A DNA stretch of 64,000 nt from Variovorax sp. N23 (GTDB lineage Bacteria; Pseudomonadota; Gammaproteobacteria; Burkholderiales; Burkholderiaceae_C): the NCBI RefSeq assembly GCF_025486315.1, contig NZ_JAOOPY010000005.1:180101-244100 (forward strand), in the 5' to 3' direction. How positions within the stretch are numbered: the stretch's first letter is position 1; the number at the start of each line of letters is the position of its first letter. Made by a program: the position numbers and the translations under genes. A model generated the notes under the pieces. That model worked only from the letters and a program-made list of their open reading frames with translations. It was not told where the DNA came from and searched no databases. Positions 19,333-30,496 of the stretch are shown here, piece by piece.

Positions 19333-20679
<1,347 letters not shown>

Positions 20680-20688
20680 CGTCGGCGC

Positions 20689-21990
20689 CTAGAAGGTGAA
20701 GGGGATGCGCGCGGTCAGCGTGAGGTCGGGCGTATCGCGCGTGAGGCCTGCGCCCACCGAGATGTTCACGCTCCTCTTGGCGTCGTAGCGGTACGAATAT
20801 CCGAGCATCAGCGTCGCCAGCTGGGTCCGCACCGAGCCCGGCACCGGCGTGCCGTTCTGCTTGACGCGGCCCACCGAATTCAGGTCGACGCCGATGCTGA
20901 ACGACGACTTGTCGTTCAGCGCCAGGCCCATGCCGAAGTTCATTCCGATCACGTCGCCGGCACGGAAGTCGCCGAGGAACTCGGTGCCGCCGTCGCGCAC
21001 CGTCCGGCTCACACCGCTGCGCTTGAAGTTGTAGGCATAGCTGAAGCTGCCGAAGAACACCACCGGATCGGACGGGAACAGCCAGGTGAGCCCGGGCTGC
21101 AGGGTGTAGAAGCCCGAGCCGGTCGGCAGGTCCAGCGGCAGGCCGGTGCCGGTGGTGTTGCCGATGCAGCGCGTCACGCAGTCGGTCACCACCTCGAAGG
21201 GGTCCTTGCCGGTGCGCGACTTGAAGCGCAGCGTGCCGATCATGTACGGGGTCGACGCGTCGCCTTCGTTGAACTGGTAGCGCGCCGTGACCTCGGCGTC
21301 GCCGATGTGGCGGCCGCTGGTCTCGAACACGTTGTCGATCGCCGAGCCGGTGAAGATCTCGCGGCTCACCGTGGAGTTGGAGCGGTACACGTAGGGCAGC
21401 TTGGCTTCGATCTCGAAGCGGTTGGTGATGCCGAAGCGGCCGGTCAGCGCGGTGGTGAAGGTGTGCTGCTTGACCTGCCGCACGTCGACCAGCCCGATGA
21501 GCAGCGACGGGATGATGGTGTAGCCGACCAGCGCCACCTGGTTGCTCGACGAGTACGCGTACTGGACCGACGGCTCCAGCACGATCGTGCCCTTGGGCGT
21601 GAGGATGCCCGGCTGCTCGAAGAGCGGCGCCACGTTGAAGGTGCGCGTGTCCTGGCTGGGCGGCTGCCCGACCTGGATGGGGCGCGGCGCGACGGCGACC
21701 GCGCGCGGCTCGCTCCGCGCCGCCGCCGTGGCGGCCGCGTCCGCGGCGGCACGGTTCTCGGCCAGTGCGCGCTGGAGTTCCTCGTGGCGCGCGGTCTGCT
21801 CCGCCATCGACTGCCGCAGCGCCTCGATCTCGCGGCCCTGTTCGGCCACCTGTCGCTGCAACTCGGCCAGGGGCGATGGCGCCCGACGCGGCGCCGGCCG
21901 CGGTGCCGTGGTCTGCGCCTCGGCGGCGCTCGCAACGACCGTCGCGCACAGGCAGAGCGCGATGCGGGAAAAACCTGCGGGATGAGTCAT
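20689..21990 (-). CDS. FapF-like outer-membrane beta-barrel with N-terminal coiled coil
   Basis: 433 residues. A signal peptide (1-25, ending SAAEA-Q) is followed by a heptad-patterned coiled coil (about 38-95, LAELQRQVAEQGREIEAL then HEELQRALAENRA) and a beta-barrel from about 110 to the C-terminal Phe (RIPFTF). This architecture, coiled coil then barrel of the Phenol_MetA_deg type, is that of FapF, the trimeric channel that exports Fap amyloid subunits in Pseudomonas. Family assignment is from architecture and context: the divergent operon encodes a Gly-rich fibre-like protein and a C39 peptidase. It is co-transcribed with the regulator downstream. A phenol-type substrate transporter role is the alternative but less likely. 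Confidence 0.75.
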   Translation of the reverse strand: MTHPAGFSRIALCLCATVVASAAEAQTTAPRPAPRRAPSPLAELQRQVAEQGREIEALRQSMAEQTARHEELQRALAENRAAADAAATAAARSEPRAVAVAPRPIQVGQPPSQDTRTFNVAPLFEQPGILTPKGTIVLEPSVQYAYSSSNQVALVGYTIIPSLLIGLVDVRQVKQHTFTTALTGRFGITNRFEIEAKLPYVYRSNSTVSREIFTGSAIDNVFETSGRHIGDAEVTARYQFNEGDASTPYMIGTLRFKSRTGKDPFEVVTDCVTRCIGNTTGTGLPLDLPTGSGFYTLQPGLTWLFPSDPVVFFGSFSYAYNFKRSGVSRTVRDGGTEFLGDFRAGDVIGMNFGMGLALNDKSSFSIGVDLNSVGRVKQNGTPVPGSVRTQLATLMLGYSYRYDAKRSVNISVGAGLTRDTPDLTLTARIPFTF

Positions 21991-22451: not shown

Positions 22452-23717
22452 ATGAACAAGACACTTCTCGCTTCCGCGGTCGCGCTGGCCCTGGGCGTCG
22501 CCGCCGGTCCGGGGCTCGCCGACACGAACACGCAGTCGGGCGGCGGCGCCAACGCCTCCGATACCGCACTGGCCTTGCAGGACAACAGCACGAACAGCAG
22601 CACCAGCACCAGCACGAGCACGAGCACGAACACCGACTCGAGCACCACCACCAGCGACAGCAGCGACCGGAGCAGCAACCGCAATTCGGGCGCGGCGCGC
22701 GCCAATGCCGCGCGCTCGGTCGCGCTCAACAACGGGTCCACCGGCAGCTTCTCGAACGCCTTCAACCAGACCACCGCCACGGCCAGCAGCAACCTCAGCG
22801 GCGTGGTCACCGGCAACAACGTCAGCGGCATCGGCAACTACGCCTACAACACCGGCTCGTCGGCCGGCGGCACCGGCAACGGTGGCTACGGCGGGCGCGG
22901 TGCGGGCGGCTCCGCCTCCGGCAGCGGCCAGGGTGGCAACGGGGCGGTGGGCTCGGGCGCCGTGGGTGCCACCGGCGGCAGCGCGTCGAACGGGGCGATC
23001 AGCCACGGCAGCGCGACCAACGGCAGCGCGACCGCGGGCAACGGCGCCTACGGCTCGGGCGGCTCCGCATCGGGCGCCAACACCGGCGGTCAGGCCCGTG
23101 CCAATGGCGACAACGGCGGGGCCGGCGGCTACGGCAGCGCCGCCGCCGGTGGCGGCAACGGTGGCGGGAGCGGCGGCAGCGGCAGCGCCGATGGCGGTGG
23201 CGGTCTGCTCGGCGGTTCCGCCGGCGGCACCAGCGGCAGCACAGGCACGGCGGGGGCCGGCGGCTCGGCCACCGGCACGGGCAGCGGTGCAGCAGGCGGC
23301 GCCGGCGGCATGGGCGGCACGGCCACCAGTTCCAACACCGGCGCACGCACGGCCGGCAGCGGCGACGGCGGCACCGGCGGCCCGGCCACCAATGGCAGCG
23401 CGACCAACGGCAGTGCCAGCAACGGCAACAACAGCGCGGGCAGCGGCGGTGCGGGCGGCAGCGGCACCGGTGGCGCCGGCGGCGCGGGCAGCGGCGGCAC
23501 CAACACCGCGGCCGGGGGCACCGGTGGCGTGGGTGAGGGTGGCAGCGGCGGCGCAGGCGGCACCAACACCGTGAGCGCCGGCACCTTCAACATGTCCAAC
23601 ACCATGACCTCCGTGGGCCAGTCCGCCGCCGGGATCATGCTGGCCAACCAGCAGAGCGGCATCAGCAGCCTGGTACAGCAGAGCGTGAACGTGCAGGCCA
23701 ACCTCAGCGTCCGCTGA
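22452..23717 (+). CDS. Gly/Ser/Asn-rich exported fibre-like protein (Fap-type major subunit candidate)
   Basis: 421 residues. Signal peptide MNKTLLASAVALALGVAAGPGLA. Then a Ser/Thr/Asn low-complexity linker (about 37-75), a short segment with FNQTTATASSNLSGVVTG, a long Gly/Ala/Ser/Thr/Asn region (about 135-375), and a conserved-looking tail containing SVGQSAAGIMLANQQSG and LVQQSVNVQANLSVR. Gln/Asn-spaced hydrophobic repeats of the tail recall curli and Fap subunits; Cys is absent. AGGAG lies six bases before the ATG, and a sigma-54-type promoter precedes it. Role as secreted amyloid or biofilm fibre is inferred from composition and from the neighbouring barrel and C39 peptidase. I do not recognise a closer named family. 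Confidence 0.75.
   Translation: MNKTLLASAVALALGVAAGPGLADTNTQSGGGANASDTALALQDNSTNSSTSTSTSTSTNTDSSTTTSDSSDRSSNRNSGAARANAARSVALNNGSTGSFSNAFNQTTATASSNLSGVVTGNNVSGIGNYAYNTGSSAGGTGNGGYGGRGAGGSASGSGQGGNGAVGSGAVGATGGSASNGAISHGSATNGSATAGNGAYGSGGSASGANTGGQARANGDNGGAGGYGSAAAGGGNGGGSGGSGSADGGGGLLGGSAGGTSGSTGTAGAGGSATGTGSGAAGGAGGMGGTATSSNTGARTAGSGDGGTGGPATNGSATNGSASNGNNSAGSGGAGGSGTGGAGGAGSGGTNTAAGGTGGVGEGGSGGAGGTNTVSAGTFNMSNTMTSVGQSAAGIMLANQQSGISSLVQQSVNVQANLSVR
22599..22628 (+). repeat. In-frame hexanucleotide microsatellite (AGCAC-C/G)x5
   Basis: Five tandem hexamers, AGCACC twice and AGCACG three times, encode Ser-Thr repeats in the linker of the Gly-rich protein. Slippage would lengthen or shorten the linker without a frameshift. 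Confidence 0.75.
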
Positions 23718-23806: not shown

Positions 23807-24172
23807 ATGCGAAACCTGCCTTGGAGACACCGTCTCGCGATGACGGCGGTCGCGTTGCTGCCCTTTCAGCTGTCGGCGCAGACCGTGCCGCAGGACGGCG
23901 CCGCAGGTACGGCGACGGCCTCCGTCTTCGCCGCGGCGCCGGTGGATGCCGACACGCTGTCGACCCTGCGCGGTGGACGCGACATCACCCACAACGACAT
24001 GCGGCTGGACGGCATCACCGCCGGCAACGTGGCCGACCATGTCGCCACCGGCAACAACACCATCACCAGCGGCGCGTTCTCCGGCATGAGCGGCCTGCCG
24101 CTCGTGGTGCAGAACTCGGGGGCGAACGTGCTGATCCAGAACGCCGTCATCGTCAACGTGAAGATGCAATAG
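23807..24172 (+). CDS. Exported double-glycine protein of the Fap-like locus
   Basis: 121 residues. An N-terminal signal peptide (about 1-24, ending QLSAQ) is followed at residues 49-57 by DTLSTLRGG, a double-glycine motif with Leu at -4 and -7, as in sites cut by C39 peptidases. The remaining 64 residues alternate hydrophobic and polar residues with Asn (AGNVADHVATGNNTITSG, ending NVLIQNAVIVNVKMQ), which favours beta-strands. GAGGA lies before the ATG. It stands between the Gly-rich fibre gene and the C39 peptidase gene (12 bases). Likely a minor subunit, nucleator or chaperone of the fibre; not a family I can name. Confidence 0.7.
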   Translation: MRNLPWRHRLAMTAVALLPFQLSAQTVPQDGAAGTATASVFAAAPVDADTLSTLRGGRDITHNDMRLDGITAGNVADHVATGNNTITSGAFSGMSGLPLVVQNSGANVLIQNAVIVNVKMQ

Positions 24173-24184
24173 GCGGAGCGCGCC

Positions 24185-24883
24185 ATGCACACCCTTCTGC
24201 CGTGGCCCGCCGCCCTGCTCTGCCTGGGCCTGGTACACGCCCCCGTGCATGCGCAGCCGCGCTCCCCGCAGATGACCGAGATCGGCGGCGGCAGCTACAC
24301 CGTGCCGATCCGCAGCCTGCTGCAGATCAAGCAGGCGGGCACGCTGCTGCAGCAGTACGACTTCAGCTGCGGCTCGGCCGCCGTGGCCACGCTGCTGACG
24401 CATCACTACGGCGTGCCGACCGGCGAGCGCGAGGTGTTCGAGCAGATGTATGCCGAGGGCGACCAGGACAAGATCCGGCGCGAGGGCTTCTCGCTGCTCG
24501 ACATGAAGCGCTTCCTGCAGACGCGCGGCTTCGAGGCCGATGGCTTTCGACAGCCGCTGGAGAAACTGCGCGAGGAAGGCCTGCCGGCCATCGCGCTCAT
24601 CACCGAGAACGGCTACCACCACTTCGTCGTGGTGAAGGGCCTGGACCGCGGCCGCGTGCTGATCGGCGACCCGGCCAACGGCACGCGCGCCATGCCACGC
24701 GCCACCTTCGAAGCACAGTGGAAGCAGAAGCTGCTCTTCGTCGTCCACAACCGGATGGACCTGGCGCGTTTCAACCTTGCCGCCGACTGGCGCGCCGCAC
24801 CGGCCGCACCGCTCGCCGACGGCGGGTTCCTGCGCGACGCGCTCACCCACACCTTGCCGCGCAACGGCCCGGGGCAGTTCTGA
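24185..24883 (+). CDS. C39 family peptidase, FapD-like
   Basis: 232 residues. A signal peptide (1-23, ending PVHA-Q) sends it to the periplasm. The papain-like C39 fold is shown by QQYDFSCGSAAVATLL with the catalytic Cys (about residue 62), ENGYHHFVVVKG with the catalytic His (about 142) and IGDPANG with the third residue (about 160). In Pseudomonas fap operons FapD is a C39-like protease required for fibre export. Here the genes on both sides encode exported proteins carrying the motif TLxT(L/M)RGG, likely substrates. The stop overlaps the next start (TGATG). It has no ABC-transporter domains, unlike bacteriocin exporters. Confidence 0.88.
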   Translation: MHTLLPWPAALLCLGLVHAPVHAQPRSPQMTEIGGGSYTVPIRSLLQIKQAGTLLQQYDFSCGSAAVATLLTHHYGVPTGEREVFEQMYAEGDQDKIRREGFSLLDMKRFLQTRGFEADGFRQPLEKLREEGLPAIALITENGYHHFVVVKGLDRGRVLIGDPANGTRAMPRATFEAQWKQKLLFVVHNRMDLARFNLAADWRAAPAAPLADGGFLRDALTHTLPRNGPGQF

Positions 24884-25392
24884 TGGTCCGCAAGCTCGCC
24901 ACAGCCCTCGGCCTGTCGCTCGCCCTGGCCGCCGGCGCCTGCCGGGCCGACGCCCCCCGGGCGCCCGCCGACGCGGCCGTCTGGATGACGGTGGGCGACG
25001 CCACGCTGGAGACGATGCGCGGCGGCTTCGACCTGGGCGGCGGCGTGATGGTGTCCTTCGGCATCAGCCGCGTCATCTCGGTCAACGGCGTGCTGATGGC
25101 CAGCACCGCCTTCCATGTGCCCGACCTCGGCCGGGTCACGCCGGCGCAGGCCGCGGCCCTCGAGCGCCACGTCGGCAGCGCGAGCCTGGTGCAGGTCGGC
25201 AGCGGCAATGTGGCGCCCACGGGCGCCGCCGCGGTGCCGGCGGCGGTGATCGTGCAGAACACCTTGAACGACCAGTCGATCCAGACACGGACCGTGATCG
25301 ACACCACCACCAACGGCATGAGCCTCGCCAAGGGCCTCAACGCCGGCGCGGCGCTGCAGGATGCGCTGGTGCGGGCCGTTCCGGCGCGCTAG
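24883..25392 (+). CDS. Exported double-glycine protein, FapE-like
   Basis: 169 residues. An N-terminal signal sequence (MVRKLATALGLSLALAAGACRA) is followed at residues 40-48 by ATLETMRGG, nearly the same motif as in the protein two genes upstream (DTLSTLRGG). Next comes FDLGGGVMVSFGISRVISVNG, which resembles the start of FapE-like proteins, and a C-terminal part rich in Val/Gln/Asn (VQVGSGN, VIVQNTLNDQSIQTRTVID). Last gene of the operon; translationally coupled to the peptidase gene. Assignment to FapE is from memory of motif and gene order, hence moderate confidence; exported status is clear. Confidence 0.68.
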   Translation: MVRKLATALGLSLALAAGACRADAPRAPADAAVWMTVGDATLETMRGGFDLGGGVMVSFGISRVISVNGVLMASTAFHVPDLGRVTPAQAAALERHVGSASLVQVGSGNVAPTGAAAVPAAVIVQNTLNDQSIQTRTVIDTTTNGMSLAKGLNAGAALQDALVRAVPAR

Positions 25393-25404: not shown

Positions 25405-27358
<1,954 letters not shown>

Positions 27359-27362
<4 letters not shown>

Positions 27363-28705
27363 TCGGACGACTCCAGCGTGTCGACGATCAGGCGGTCGCC
27401 ATCCTTCAGCTCACCCGACAGCACTTTCGTCACTTCGGTCATCTTCCCATCGCTGGCGCCGACCTGCAGCTTGACCGCGACCGCACGGCCGTCGACCAGC
27501 TTCCAGGCCGTCTGCTCGCTGCCGCTGACGATGGCGGCGCTCGACTGCGTGGTCTTCGCCTGCCGGGGCATGGTAATCAGCAGGCTGGTGACGCTGCCCT
27601 TGGCCGCTTTGCCGGCACGCGTCGGGGTGTAGCGCAAGGCAGCGTTGGGCACCTGCAGCGCACGCTCGCGGCGCAGCGTCACGATGCGGGCATTGGCCGT
27701 CATGCCCGGGCGCAGGCTCAGGTCCTTGTTGTCGACCTCGAGCACGGCCTGGTACGTCACGACGTTGTTCGTCGTGTCGGAGCCATAGCGCAGCCGGACG
27801 ATGCGCGCCGGGTACGAACGCTCCGGGTAGGCATCGACGGTGAACTGCGCCGACTGGCCCTCCTTGACCTGGCCCACGTCGGCCTCGTCGACGTTGACCT
27901 CCAGCTTCATCTGGGTCAAGTCCTGTGCGAGCGTGATGAGCGTGGTCACCTGCAAGCTGGCGGCAACGGTCTGGCCCGGCTCGACCGAGCGCTTGAGCAC
28001 CACGCCGTCGATTGCCGAGCGCAGCGACGCCTTGGACAGGTTGGTCCGGTTCGTGTTCAGCGTGGCCTGCGCCTGGTCGATCGCTGCCGCCGCGTTGGCC
28101 TCGTTGGCTTGGGCCTTCTCGACCTCGATCTGCGCGTTCTCCACGTCGCTCCTGGCGGGCACCATGCCGCCGGAGAACTTCCAGGCCTCTTCGTTGCGCC
28201 TGAGCTTCGCCTGAGTCTCGCGGGTCGCCGCCTTGTACTGGCGCAAACTCGCGACGGCCATGCGCAGCGCGGCCTCGGACTCTTTCACCTGGTTCTGCAG
28301 CTTGCTCGTCTCGAGCACAGCCAGCACCTGGCCGCGGCGCACATTGTCGTTGTCCTCGACCAAGACCTTGTCGATGGTGCCGGAGAGTTCGCTGCCGACG
28401 TCGACCTTGGTCAGCGGCTGCAGATTGCCGGTCGCGCTGACCCTGACGACGAGCTCGCCGGTGGCGACGCCCTCCGTCTCGTACTGCGCGCCGGACGTGT
28501 CGCCGCGACGCATCCACACGACCAGCAGGGCGGCAGCGACCACGGCCAGCAGTGCGGCCAAGGCCCAGAAGCGCCACGAACGCCAGGAGCGGGCCGGGGT
28601 CTTGCCCGCCTTGCCGATGCCCAACTGGGTGGCCACGGCATCGGCGCTCAAGGGCGATTTCTTCGGGTCGACAGTGTCCTGATTCATCGTGGAGCCTTGC
28701 ATCAT
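27359..28705 (-). CDS. Periplasmic adaptor (membrane fusion protein), MacA type
   Basis: 448 residues. A cytoplasmic N-terminal tail of about 45 residues precedes a single membrane anchor (about 45-66, FWALAALLAVVAAALLVVWM), then a barrel-sandwich/lipoyl half (VDVGSELSGTIDKVLVEDNDNV as SELSGTIDKVLV), a helical hairpin (about 130-230) and beta-barrel domains with VNVDEADVGQVKEGQ. It links the MacB-type ABC unit to the outer-membrane channel. Start at 28705 overlaps the stop of the channel gene; a second ATG at 28687 is also possible. Confidence 0.93.
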
Positions 28706-30150
28706 CGATCCGTGCCCGATGGCGGGACCTGGGGGGTGGCAGGCGCCTGCACGACCTGCCCGGGCTGCCAGCCGCCACCGGCTGCCTTGTAGAGTGCGAT
28801 CCAGTACTGCACCCGATTGCGCTGCAGCGTGATGCGCTGGATCTCCGCCGTCAGCGCCAGGCGGCGCGCCTCCTCCAGGGTCAGCAGGCTGACGTTGCCT
28901 GCGCGCCAGTTGCTCTCGGTGGCCAGGAAGTAGTTGCGATACTGCCGCTCGGCAGTCGTCGCCTGCTCGGTGCGGCTGGCGGCACCGCCGAGGTTGACCA
29001 GTGCCTGCTCGACCTCCTTGACGATCCGACGCACGCCCTGCTGGTAGGACGCGAAGGCCGACAGGTAGGCCGCCTCGGCGCTGCGCACCGAGGCCCGCCG
29101 CTGGCCGCCGTCGAAGATCGGCAGCGAGATCGATGGCCCGAACGACCAGCCGATCGCCGGAGCGCCACTGCTGGCCGACAGGCCGCTCACGCCGTTGGCC
29201 GACACCCCGATCGCGCCGCTGAGCGACAGGCTGGGGTAGAGCGCGGCCTGCGCGGCACCGATCTCGGCGCTGGCGGCAGCCAGTTCGCGCTCGAGCGAGG
29301 CCAGGTCGGGCCGCTGGCGCAGCACGTCGACCGGCACCGAACCGACCGCCAACTGGGCCGGCGCGGGGATGCCCACGGGCGAATCGGTCATCAGCACGCG
29401 CAGCGCCGGTTCATCGCGCCCGGTGAGGTAGACCAGCGCCTTGACGAGCACGTCGCACTGCGCCCGTTGGTCGAGCAGCGAACTCTGGGCGCTGGCCAGG
29501 CTCGCGCTCGCCAGCGCCTCGTCGGCCGACGCGGTCAGCCCGGCGCGCACCGACGCCAAGGTGGCAAGTTCGGTCTGCGAGTTCGACTTCAGCTCGCGCT
29601 CATAGGTATCGGCAAGAAGTCCGCAGGCACGCCATTGCACGTAGGTGTCCGCCACCTCGGCGGCCAGCGAGACGCGCGTGTCGTGCCAGTCGGCGGTCCG
29701 CGCCACCACCCGCGCTTCCGAAGCCTCGGCGTTGCGGCGGATCTTGCCGAACAGGTCGATTTCCCAGGAGGCGTCGAACTCGGCGCTGCGCGACGTCAGC
29801 AGCTGCCCGGCCGTGCGCGTGCGGCTGGCGTCGGCGGTCGCGGTGAGCGCAGGCACGCCACCGCCGCGCACCGACGAGAGCGTCGCACGGGCCTTCTCGA
29901 TGCTGGCCCAGGCCACGGTCAGATCGGGGCTGTCGGCCTCGGCCAGCGCCACCAGCTTGCCCACCGTGGGGTCGTCGAACCGGGCCCACCAGCGCAGCAT
30001 CTCAAGCGTCTGCCCGCCATGCGGCCGCGGCGCCTGCCAAGCCGACGGCGCGTTCGGATGTACCGGGCGGTAGTCCGGCCCCACCGTGGTACAGCCGGCG
30101 GCAGCCAGCGCGGAGGCCAGCGCCAAGGCCGCTACGCGGTGCGTAGCCAT
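28702..30150 (-). CDS. Outer-membrane efflux lipoprotein (NodT/OprM family)
   Basis: 482 residues. Signal peptide with lipobox LAAAGC (Cys about 19) followed by TTVGPDYRPV, the typical start of NodT-type channels. Two outer-membrane efflux repeats follow; the second ends with LALTAEIQRITLQRNRVQYWIALYKAAGGGW (recognised by RNRVQYWIALYKALGG-like ending). It should form the trimeric outer-membrane channel of the operon. ATG at 30150 is preferred to an upstream in-frame ATG (30231) because the signal peptide begins here. First gene of the four-gene efflux operon. Confidence 0.93.
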   Translation of the reverse strand: MATHRVAALALASALAAAGCTTVGPDYRPVHPNAPSAWQAPRPHGGQTLEMLRWWARFDDPTVGKLVALAEADSPDLTVAWASIEKARATLSSVRGGGVPALTATADASRTRTAGQLLTSRSAEFDASWEIDLFGKIRRNAEASEARVVARTADWHDTRVSLAAEVADTYVQWRACGLLADTYERELKSNSQTELATLASVRAGLTASADEALASASLASAQSSLLDQRAQCDVLVKALVYLTGRDEPALRVLMTDSPVGIPAPAQLAVGSVPVDVLRQRPDLASLERELAAASAEIGAAQAALYPSLSLSGAIGVSANGVSGLSASSGAPAIGWSFGPSISLPIFDGGQRRASVRSAEAAYLSAFASYQQGVRRIVKEVEQALVNLGGAASRTEQATTAERQYRNYFLATESNWRAGNVSLLTLEEARRLALTAEIQRITLQRNRVQYWIALYKAAGGGWQPGQVVQAPATPQVPPSGTDR

Positions 30151-30496
30151 AGATCCGATCGCGTGGGCTGCTGCTGCGATGCCGAAGTGCGTCCACTGTG
30201 GCCGCGGCTCATCCAGGTCGCCATGACACACGGTCGCGCCCCGCTACGCCCCACCGCACGCAGCAGCGAAAGGCCGCTCTGCGTCAAGAAAAGCTGCATG
30301 TCGACAGGTATCACCGACGGACTCCGAAAGTTGAGCGACTCTAGGCGCCGTACCCGACAACGCGGCTGATACGCATCAAGGAACCTCCTTCTCCATCGGT
30401 GACATGGTTCTTCTCGCCGGCCATCAGGCGCACATGACCGGACCATGGCCGATCGAAGATCGCGGTGAAAAGGTCGGACGCGACCGCGCGGGTCGG
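30151..30496. other. 346-base gap upstream of the efflux operon
   Basis: Holds the upstream region of the minus-strand efflux operon and the downstream region of the surface-adhesin-like gene. I see no convincing promoter hexamers, operator palindrome, small gene or terminator. Base composition is slightly less GC-rich around 30280-30400. No regulator gene adjoins the operon. Confidence 0.6.

Follow-up and report, generated by a model that had tools for sequence, protein, structure and literature searches.

C39 peptidases that recognise double-glycine leaders are known from ABC exporters such as PCAT1 and ComA, with LahT and CvaB as further examples. A variable glycine at position -1 or -2 is unusual for these enzymes. 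In the part of the source available to us, the consensus of their leaders is given as LSX2ELX2IXGG, with the cut falling after GG (PMC3897388). A periplasmic C39 peptidase, FapD, also belongs to the Fap fibre system of Pseudomonas (FapA-F), in which the gene for FapE lies right after that of the peptidase. According to the available sections of Rouse et al. 2017, the C38A variant of FapD abolishes secretion of FapC, and FapE is the only protein of the operon with complete N-terminal processing: no peptides were found from the first ~70 residues of FapE of Pseudomonas UK4, and FapA-D gave peptides throughout, with no processing reported (PMC5557850). The same sections describe the Fap proteins as lacking canonical C39 sequences, mention GG and GA motifs in FapE and raise the speculative idea of a cut in FapF by FapD close to GG motifs (PMC5557850). 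A December 2025 review, as far as its available text goes, says no more than that processing of FapE and FapF is what FapD is 'thought to' do, and refers to papers from 2017 and 2013 (PMC12822426). Thus, in the accessible portions of the Fap literature (PMC5557850 and PMC12822426 among others), a FapD substrate is at most suspected. A further comparable system is Fil, a putative pilus cluster of Acinetobacter with the C39 peptidase FilB and with FilC; our literature search for the Fil C39 system found no paper.

The window studied here is the whole analysed stretch of 64,000 nt from Variovorax sp. N23 (GCF_025486315.1, NZ_JAOOPY010000005.1, positions 180,101 to 244,100, forward strand). It carries a gene cluster in which a regulator and a pore protein are encoded on the minus strand, and a Gly-rich protein, protein A, a C39 peptidase and protein E in the opposite direction (Table 1). 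The start codon of E overlaps the stop codon of the peptidase gene (TGATG). For comparison, a search for homologous peptidases yielded 548 relatives, of which the 80 top-ranking loci, chiefly from Burkholderiales and Xanthomonadales, were kept. In these best 80 loci of 548 relatives, coordinates show the gene order A-C39-E to be kept as far as the contigs reach, and FapF-like proteins are present in all 52 full-length relative loci. As part of our best explanation, the whole locus would be a Fap-like fibre export cluster, in which the Gly-rich protein is probably the major fibre subunit. The sigma-54-dependent regulator possibly controls the cluster.

Table 1. Features of the Fap-like cluster, in coordinates of the window
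Feature	Coordinates	Strand	Evidence
Sigma-54-dependent regulator with VpsR domain	19333..20679	-	Pfam match; match in 32/52 full-length relative loci
FapF-like outer-membrane pore, coiled coil and barrel	20689..21990	-	NCBIfam match
Gly/Ser/Asn-rich exported protein	22452..23717	+	Last 70 residues matched in 52/52 full-length relative loci
Protein A, 121 aa: Sec-type signal, propeptide, LSTLRGG, 64-residue region; candidate substrate 1	23807..24172	+	
Leader motif of A, residues 46-57, VDADTLSTLRGG, positions -12 to -1	23942..23977	+	
Stand-alone exported C39 cysteine peptidase, FapD/FilB-like	24185..24883	+	PF03412 match
Protein E, 169 aa: Sec-type signal, propeptide, LETMRGG then F49; candidate substrate 2	24883..25392	+	
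Leader motif of E, residues 37-48, VGDATLETMRGG	24991..25026	+	

Genes for a MacB-like permease, an ABC ATPase, a membrane-fusion protein and an outer-membrane efflux protein adjoin the cluster on the minus strand (25405-30231 of the window); judged by eye, they look unrelated to it.

The C39 protein scores 78.6 bits against PF03412 (cut-off 22), its sole Pfam match at E<=1, and has no ABC-transporter domain. Aligned with its relatives, its catalytic residues are intact: Q56 and C62 occur in 126 of 126 sequences, and H146 and D162 in 125 of 126 with one gap each. It is the only such peptidase in the window genome, where the one other match has E = 0.05, and the nearest solved structures by sequence are the C39 domains of PCAT/ComA-type transporters. 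Against the FapD equivalog (NF058616) the peptidase reaches 120.2 bits and against FilB (NF050078) 117.7 bits, well below the respective cut-offs of 330 and 475; the pore reaches 158.9 bits against the FapF equivalog (NF058560), whose cut-off is 700. The locus shares with Fap of Pseudomonas a periplasmic C39 peptidase, a FapF-like pore and a FapE-like gene directly after the peptidase, but its FapD- and FapF-like proteins fall far below the curated cut-offs. It differs further in its divergent pore gene, in a probable main fibre that is Gly-rich and in the additional, motif-bearing protein A encoded before the peptidase; no FapA was noticed in the cluster. The match to FilB is a likeness to Fil, from which the window differs in its substrate candidates: an Acinetobacter baumannii locus (L158, called Fil by organism) encodes a C39 peptidase and a FapF-like protein but no A, E or FapE homologue, and a leader-like motif is absent there except within the barrel part of the FapF-like ORF.

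Searched singly, neither protein A nor protein E matched a Pfam or NCBIfam model at E<=1. With their families as queries (A against Pfam and NCBIfam, E against NCBIfam), there were at most chance matches from single members. Nothing was found at E<=1 in PDB sequence searches with both profiles, and the best E-value in a fold search with the E model was 0.52. A ends in an Asn/Gln-rich, Fap/curlin-like repeat (QNSGxNVLIQN) and E is FapE-like; from these sequence features both look like minor fibre components.

An earlier note on this DNA had reported a C39 peptidase between two Sec-exported proteins with the sites DTLSTLRGG and ATLETMRGG. All of this is borne out: the sites occupy residues 49-57 of A and 40-48 of E, the intervening gene encodes a PF03412 protein with a signal-like N-terminus, and the N-termini of A and E are charged and followed by a hydrophobic core and an AxA-like site (signal assignment relied on inspection by eye and on a simple hydrophobicity rule). 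Both sites, D49-T-L-S-T-L-R-G-G57 in A and A40-T-L-E-T-M-R-G-G48 in E, lie in the propeptide that separates the signal from the mature part. Written as leaders, they read V46-D-A-D-T-L-S-T-L-R-G-G57 and V37-G-D-A-T-L-E-T-M-R-G-G48, and align with LSX2ELX2IXGG at a hydrophobic position -12, L(-7), position -4 (L in A, M in E) and GG. In the hydrophobic -12, L(-7) and GG they resemble the leaders cut by the C39 enzymes of ABC exporters, yet they break the location rule for double-glycine leaders: by eye, Sec-type signals precede them, so that each substrate would carry a second leader after its Sec signal, and the exported peptidase stands alone, without an ABC-transporter domain. A further difference from those leaders is R(-3), fixed in the close relatives of the window system. 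The system would work like Fap and like double-glycine processing, yet it stays below the Fap cut-offs and departs from the classical leader location rule. In the AlphaFold2 model of E (mean pLDDT 74, falling to about 56-59 near the leader), residues 39-46 form a helix and strands begin at 57; in that of A (mean pLDDT 58), a helix spans residues 48-54 and the remainder is largely unstructured. In these weak, low-confidence and purely illustrative models, both helices end at RGG.

To count conservation, homologues were accepted at E<=1e-5 and the site located by [LIVM]x3R[GA]G, which every homologue fitted; the window's own copies, an A without a start (L031, with LRGG present) and one E between 1e-5 and 1e-2 were left out. 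In the best 80 loci of 548 relatives, a set of closest relatives in which the window's type is over-represented, L(-7), R(-3), G(-2) and G(-1) are present in 82 of 82 A proteins, and L(-7), R(-3) and G(-1) in 77 of 77 E proteins, where G(-2) is found in 76 (the exception, in L040, is RAG). Loss of the site in orthologues, which the earlier note had named as grounds for rejecting its idea, was thus not observed in these loci, L-x3-R-G-G being kept in 82/82 A and 76/77 E, far above what chance would give. Its literal motif TLxT(L/M)RGG proved too narrow, as not one of the relatives (82 A, 77 E) fits it and neither T(-8) nor T(-5) is required. Its claim of hydrophobic residues at -7 and -4 stands for L(-7), which is fixed in close relatives, but position -4 is loose in those of A: L/I/V/M occupies it in 63 of 77 E and only 25 of 82 A (53 of 82 when A, F, W and Y are also allowed), again in the best 80 loci of 548 relatives. 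In the same set, position -12 is L/I/V/M/A in 79/82 A and 76/77 E, and position +1 is F/Y in 74/77 E. Across 64 aligned A proteins, L(-7), R(-3), G(-2) and G(-1) are the sole invariant columns ahead of the mature part. The propeptide that carries the site varies in length: the GG of A lies 63-69 residues from the C-terminus and 37 to 92 from the chosen start (best 80 loci of 548 relatives). From these alignments, the working pattern is (V)-x4-L-x3-R-G-G. Release by lipoprotein processing is unlikely, with a lipobox pattern in just 3 of 77 E and 4 of 82 A. In Massilia loci L035, L037, L043 and L047, a second A-type gene that retains RGG lies ~6-7 kb downstream.

In a sample of 200 genomes of the order, the C39 peptidase was found at E<=1e-20 in 28. 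A, E and a peptidase of at least 131 bits occur in the same 17 of 200 genomes, E being found in one more (G389, where it runs off the contig end), and neither A nor E occurs in the 11 of 28 genomes with a lower-scoring peptidase; the 131-bit line was set after the result was seen. LxxxRGG is present in E of 18/18 genomes. In A (18 loci, 17 genomes) L(-7) and G(-2) are kept in all, with RGG in 12, RGR in 2, TGR in 3 and SGN in 1, the last four sites being placed by eye. The window's own genome is part of both site counts, that of E and that of A.

In the class sample, FapD-type C39 peptidases were found in 40 of 274 genomes, at 55 listed places, and 40 regions were fetched. An E or FapE homologue is encoded in 21 of these 40 regions (L113-L133), and [LM]xxxRG[GRK] is present in 21/21: 12 are FapE-like with RG[RK] and 9 E-like with RGG. 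The other 19 regions (L134-L152), many beside FapF-like genes, yielded no A, E or FapE homologue at E<=1e-3. In an intermediate group of loci with E-like proteins, the site of A decays to RGT, RGM, RGR, RGQ and SGR (1 each) and RAKG (2); no A was recognised in L125 of this group. In the plasmid collection, E/FapE homologues occur in 6 of 10 loci, with the motif in 6/6 (RGR in L154, RGG in the others); L161 has a weak A-like match without the motif, and no homologue was found in L158, L159 and L162. On a Vibrio plasmid (L163:4550-4910) the A-type gene is split across two frames and the C39 match falls into two pieces, so this locus may be decaying or misread. Two entries filed as plasmids, NZ_AP026896.1 (4.9 Mb) and NZ_CP104448.1 (4.1 Mb), are chromosome-sized.

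The E-like proteins also connect the window to FapE. In hhalign comparisons, E and the E-like proteins of the intermediate group align with a probability of 99.8 and that group and FapE with 92, and a direct alignment of E with 12 FapE gives 87 over 38 columns around the motif; A and E reach 96.8, and A and FapE only 20. On these profile alignments, E is a distant relative of FapE, related but no member of the family, and A and E are probably paralogous. No NCBIfam model, FapE equivalog NF058559 included, matches E at E<=1, and 0 of 68 E-family members match NF058559 at 0.01. The gene after fapD in L113-L124 encodes [LM]xxxRG[RK][YF] in 12/12 cases; two of these FapE-like proteins were run against NCBIfam, and both match NF058559 below the cut-off.

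Canonical FapE was sampled in 79 genomes of a presumably Pseudomonadaceae family, reached through a genome found via the RNA CrcZ. It is present in 19 of the 79 (20 copies, all above the curated cut-off), and 20/20 carry [LVI]-x-D-x-[EQ]-[LM]-x-x-L-R-G-[RK]-[YF]-V just past the signal peptide, with F/Y at +1 in each. Fap of Pseudomonas and the window have in common that a leader-like motif follows a Sec signal, in Fap that of FapE; this motif ends in R/K in FapE and in G in the window. LSX2ELX2[ILV]XG is matched to the letter by 5 of 20. In the three numbered copies the motif ends near residue 40, so that a cut there would explain only part of the ~70 missing residues reported in the available text on FapE. 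The motif is not named in the accessible parts of the Fap papers PMC5557850, PMC5135000, PMC6173800 and PMC12822426, nor in those of PMC11787515, PMC3792158, PMC12392863 and PMC6173795 (also on Fap) or PMC3897388.

Versions of the motif are found in other Fap proteins as well. Of 17 Pseudomonadaceae regions (L225-L241), 10 showed a FapA signature, and LSDxDFAxVTSG or a near form is present in 10/10; two more cases are visible besides these ten. The spacing of this stretch is that of a C39 leader, with SG in place of GG. FapA-like proteins of other groups have PLSDGVLSGVRGRG, PLSESHLAEVYGKG, PLNDDQLGQVRGLF and similar forms, and the one in L117 reads LDDRALAGIRARN. Among 97 FapF-like proteins, 25 carry LxxxRG[AGKR] or a near variant (AGR in L113) before the barrel and 70 do not; the pattern matches 27, of which those in L079 and L114 were discounted as sites inside the coiled coil. 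Carriers come from Ralstonia, Cupriavidus, Massilia, Rhodoferax and Lysobacter among others (including L057, L160, L058 and L125), and their sequences suggest that in some lineages the pore may itself be a target of the C39 peptidase. No leader motif was seen in the linker of the window's own FapF-like protein, and its Gly-rich protein has no LxxxRGG. FapB and FapC were set aside as carriers, since the 'ALxxVxGA' seen in them represents the amyloid repeat, further copies of which occur within the protein.

The explanation we favour is that A and E are exported by Sec, signal peptidase removes the Sec signal first, and the periplasmic C39 peptidase would then recognise a (V/L)-x4-L-x3-R-G-G leader in these minor fibre proteins. 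Cutting at or beside GG, it would leave mature A starting near R58 and mature E near F49, a step that would probably license A and E, as nucleator- or anchor-like proteins, for passage through the FapF-like pore or for the fibre. We consider recognition and cleavage of both leaders by the peptidase likely. The periplasmic second cleavage proposed in the earlier note is thus backed in part, by a conserved site, an intact exported C39 peptidase, leader spacing and position in the propeptide, and has lost its literal motif and the universal second glycine. The shared occurrence of A, E and the peptidase also speaks for the explanation, as do the C38A phenotype of FapD and the processing of FapE in the available text (PMC5557850). 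The bond could be the one after position -1, in view of the classical leader spacing and of F/Y at +1 in E and FapE, or the one after G(-2), given that -1 varies. This variation also counts against the explanation: the last G is R/K in FapE and R/N/T/M/Q in some A, and G(-2) is A in the two RAKG sites. Further points against it are the literal leader match in only 5 of 20 canonical FapE, the 11 of 28 genomes with a peptidase but neither A nor E, the probable paralogy of A and E together with the low value for A and FapE, and the UK4 data, in which the ~70 missing residues of FapE reach beyond a cut near residue 40 and FapA-D are reported as unprocessed (PMC5557850). With somewhat less assurance, we lean towards (-12)hydrophobic-x4-L(-7)-x3-R-G-(G/R/K) being a general site of FapD-type C39 peptidases in FapE/E, A, FapA (TSG-like) and some FapF linkers, so that the targets of the peptidase would be the pore and minor subunits rather than the main amyloid.

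The variable ending would suit binding better than cutting, as not only the last position but sometimes G(-2) changes (R, K, N, T; RAKG; the TSG type of FapA). The peptidase might then dock on the leader helix as a chaperone or gatekeeper of the pore without cutting it, like the C39-like domains of some type I systems. Non-cleaving C39-like domains are mentioned in the available part of PMC5557850. Preservation of the four catalytic positions in 125-126 of 126 relatives speaks against docking, as does the C38A phenotype of FapD described in the same text (PMC5557850), and we regard it as unlikely. The motif could instead direct proteins to the pore or fibre, independently of the peptidase. FapF-like proteins in 52/52 full-length loci would fit such a targeting or assembly signal, and their constant presence means that co-occurrence cannot separate pore from peptidase. 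However, the presumed user of the pore, the Gly-rich protein, is without the motif, and the FapB/FapC N-termini inspected run into repeats (ALSNIRGS of Aeromonas FapB in L154, the nearest and borderline exception, is taken as repeat). Moreover, some FapF-like proteins bear the motif in their own linker, and its spacing is that of a C39 leader, all of which makes a pure targeting role quite improbable.

Common descent might also account for the shared RGG, if residues needed for folding of the mature proteins had simply been kept in two paralogues. The hhalign values of 96.8 for A and E and 87-92 for E or E-like proteins and FapE, over the motif and partly the C-terminal repeat, agree with this. 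We nevertheless hold it to be very improbable: in the weak models the motif lies outside the predicted fold (E strands begin at 57, and the motif of A sits in a separate short helix), and motif versions occur in FapA and FapF linkers, which are not obviously of the same fold. Finally, R(-3), fixed in E and close A relatives, and R/K at -1 of FapE would suit another protease, for example a trypsin-like periplasmic enzyme cutting at R or K. Such an enzyme would have no need of L(-7) and G(-2), and the adjacent, co-inherited gene encodes a C39 peptidase, leaving hardly any probability for this alternative.

If the site is indeed a general one of FapD-type peptidases, Fap-type secretion would have a second, periplasmic maturation of the double-glycine type after Sec. 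The conserved and precisely placed motif of FapE is a testable candidate FapD site, which turns the suspected processing into a peptide assay. It also suggests that C39 leader recognition, known from ABC exporters, takes place in the periplasm as well, with Sec-exported proteins as substrates.

The motif may also serve as a specific signature for finding further fibre systems and substrates of this kind. A 14-position score matrix built on 162 sites of A, E and FapE was combined with a simple signal rule and applied to 14,018 ORFs on both strands of 1.69 Mb, a set that contains spurious ORFs as well; training and test sequences overlap, so the scan shows specificity more than sensitivity. Among ORFs with a signal there were 146 matches in 146 ORFs: 115 A/E, 25 A/E/FapE homologues, 4 FapF-like proteins, 1 FapA-like protein and 1 fragment of A. 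By our judgement, none of them is unrelated. ORFs without a recognised signal gave 67 matches: 41 A/E, 8 homologues, 3 FapF-like proteins and 15 others, namely one E cut by a contig end, one FapA-like protein and 13 that seem spurious or unrelated.

A small protein with LSTAEMGEIKGG, a textbook-like leader, is encoded at L145:6354-6731, near a stand-alone C39 peptidase and on the opposite strand.
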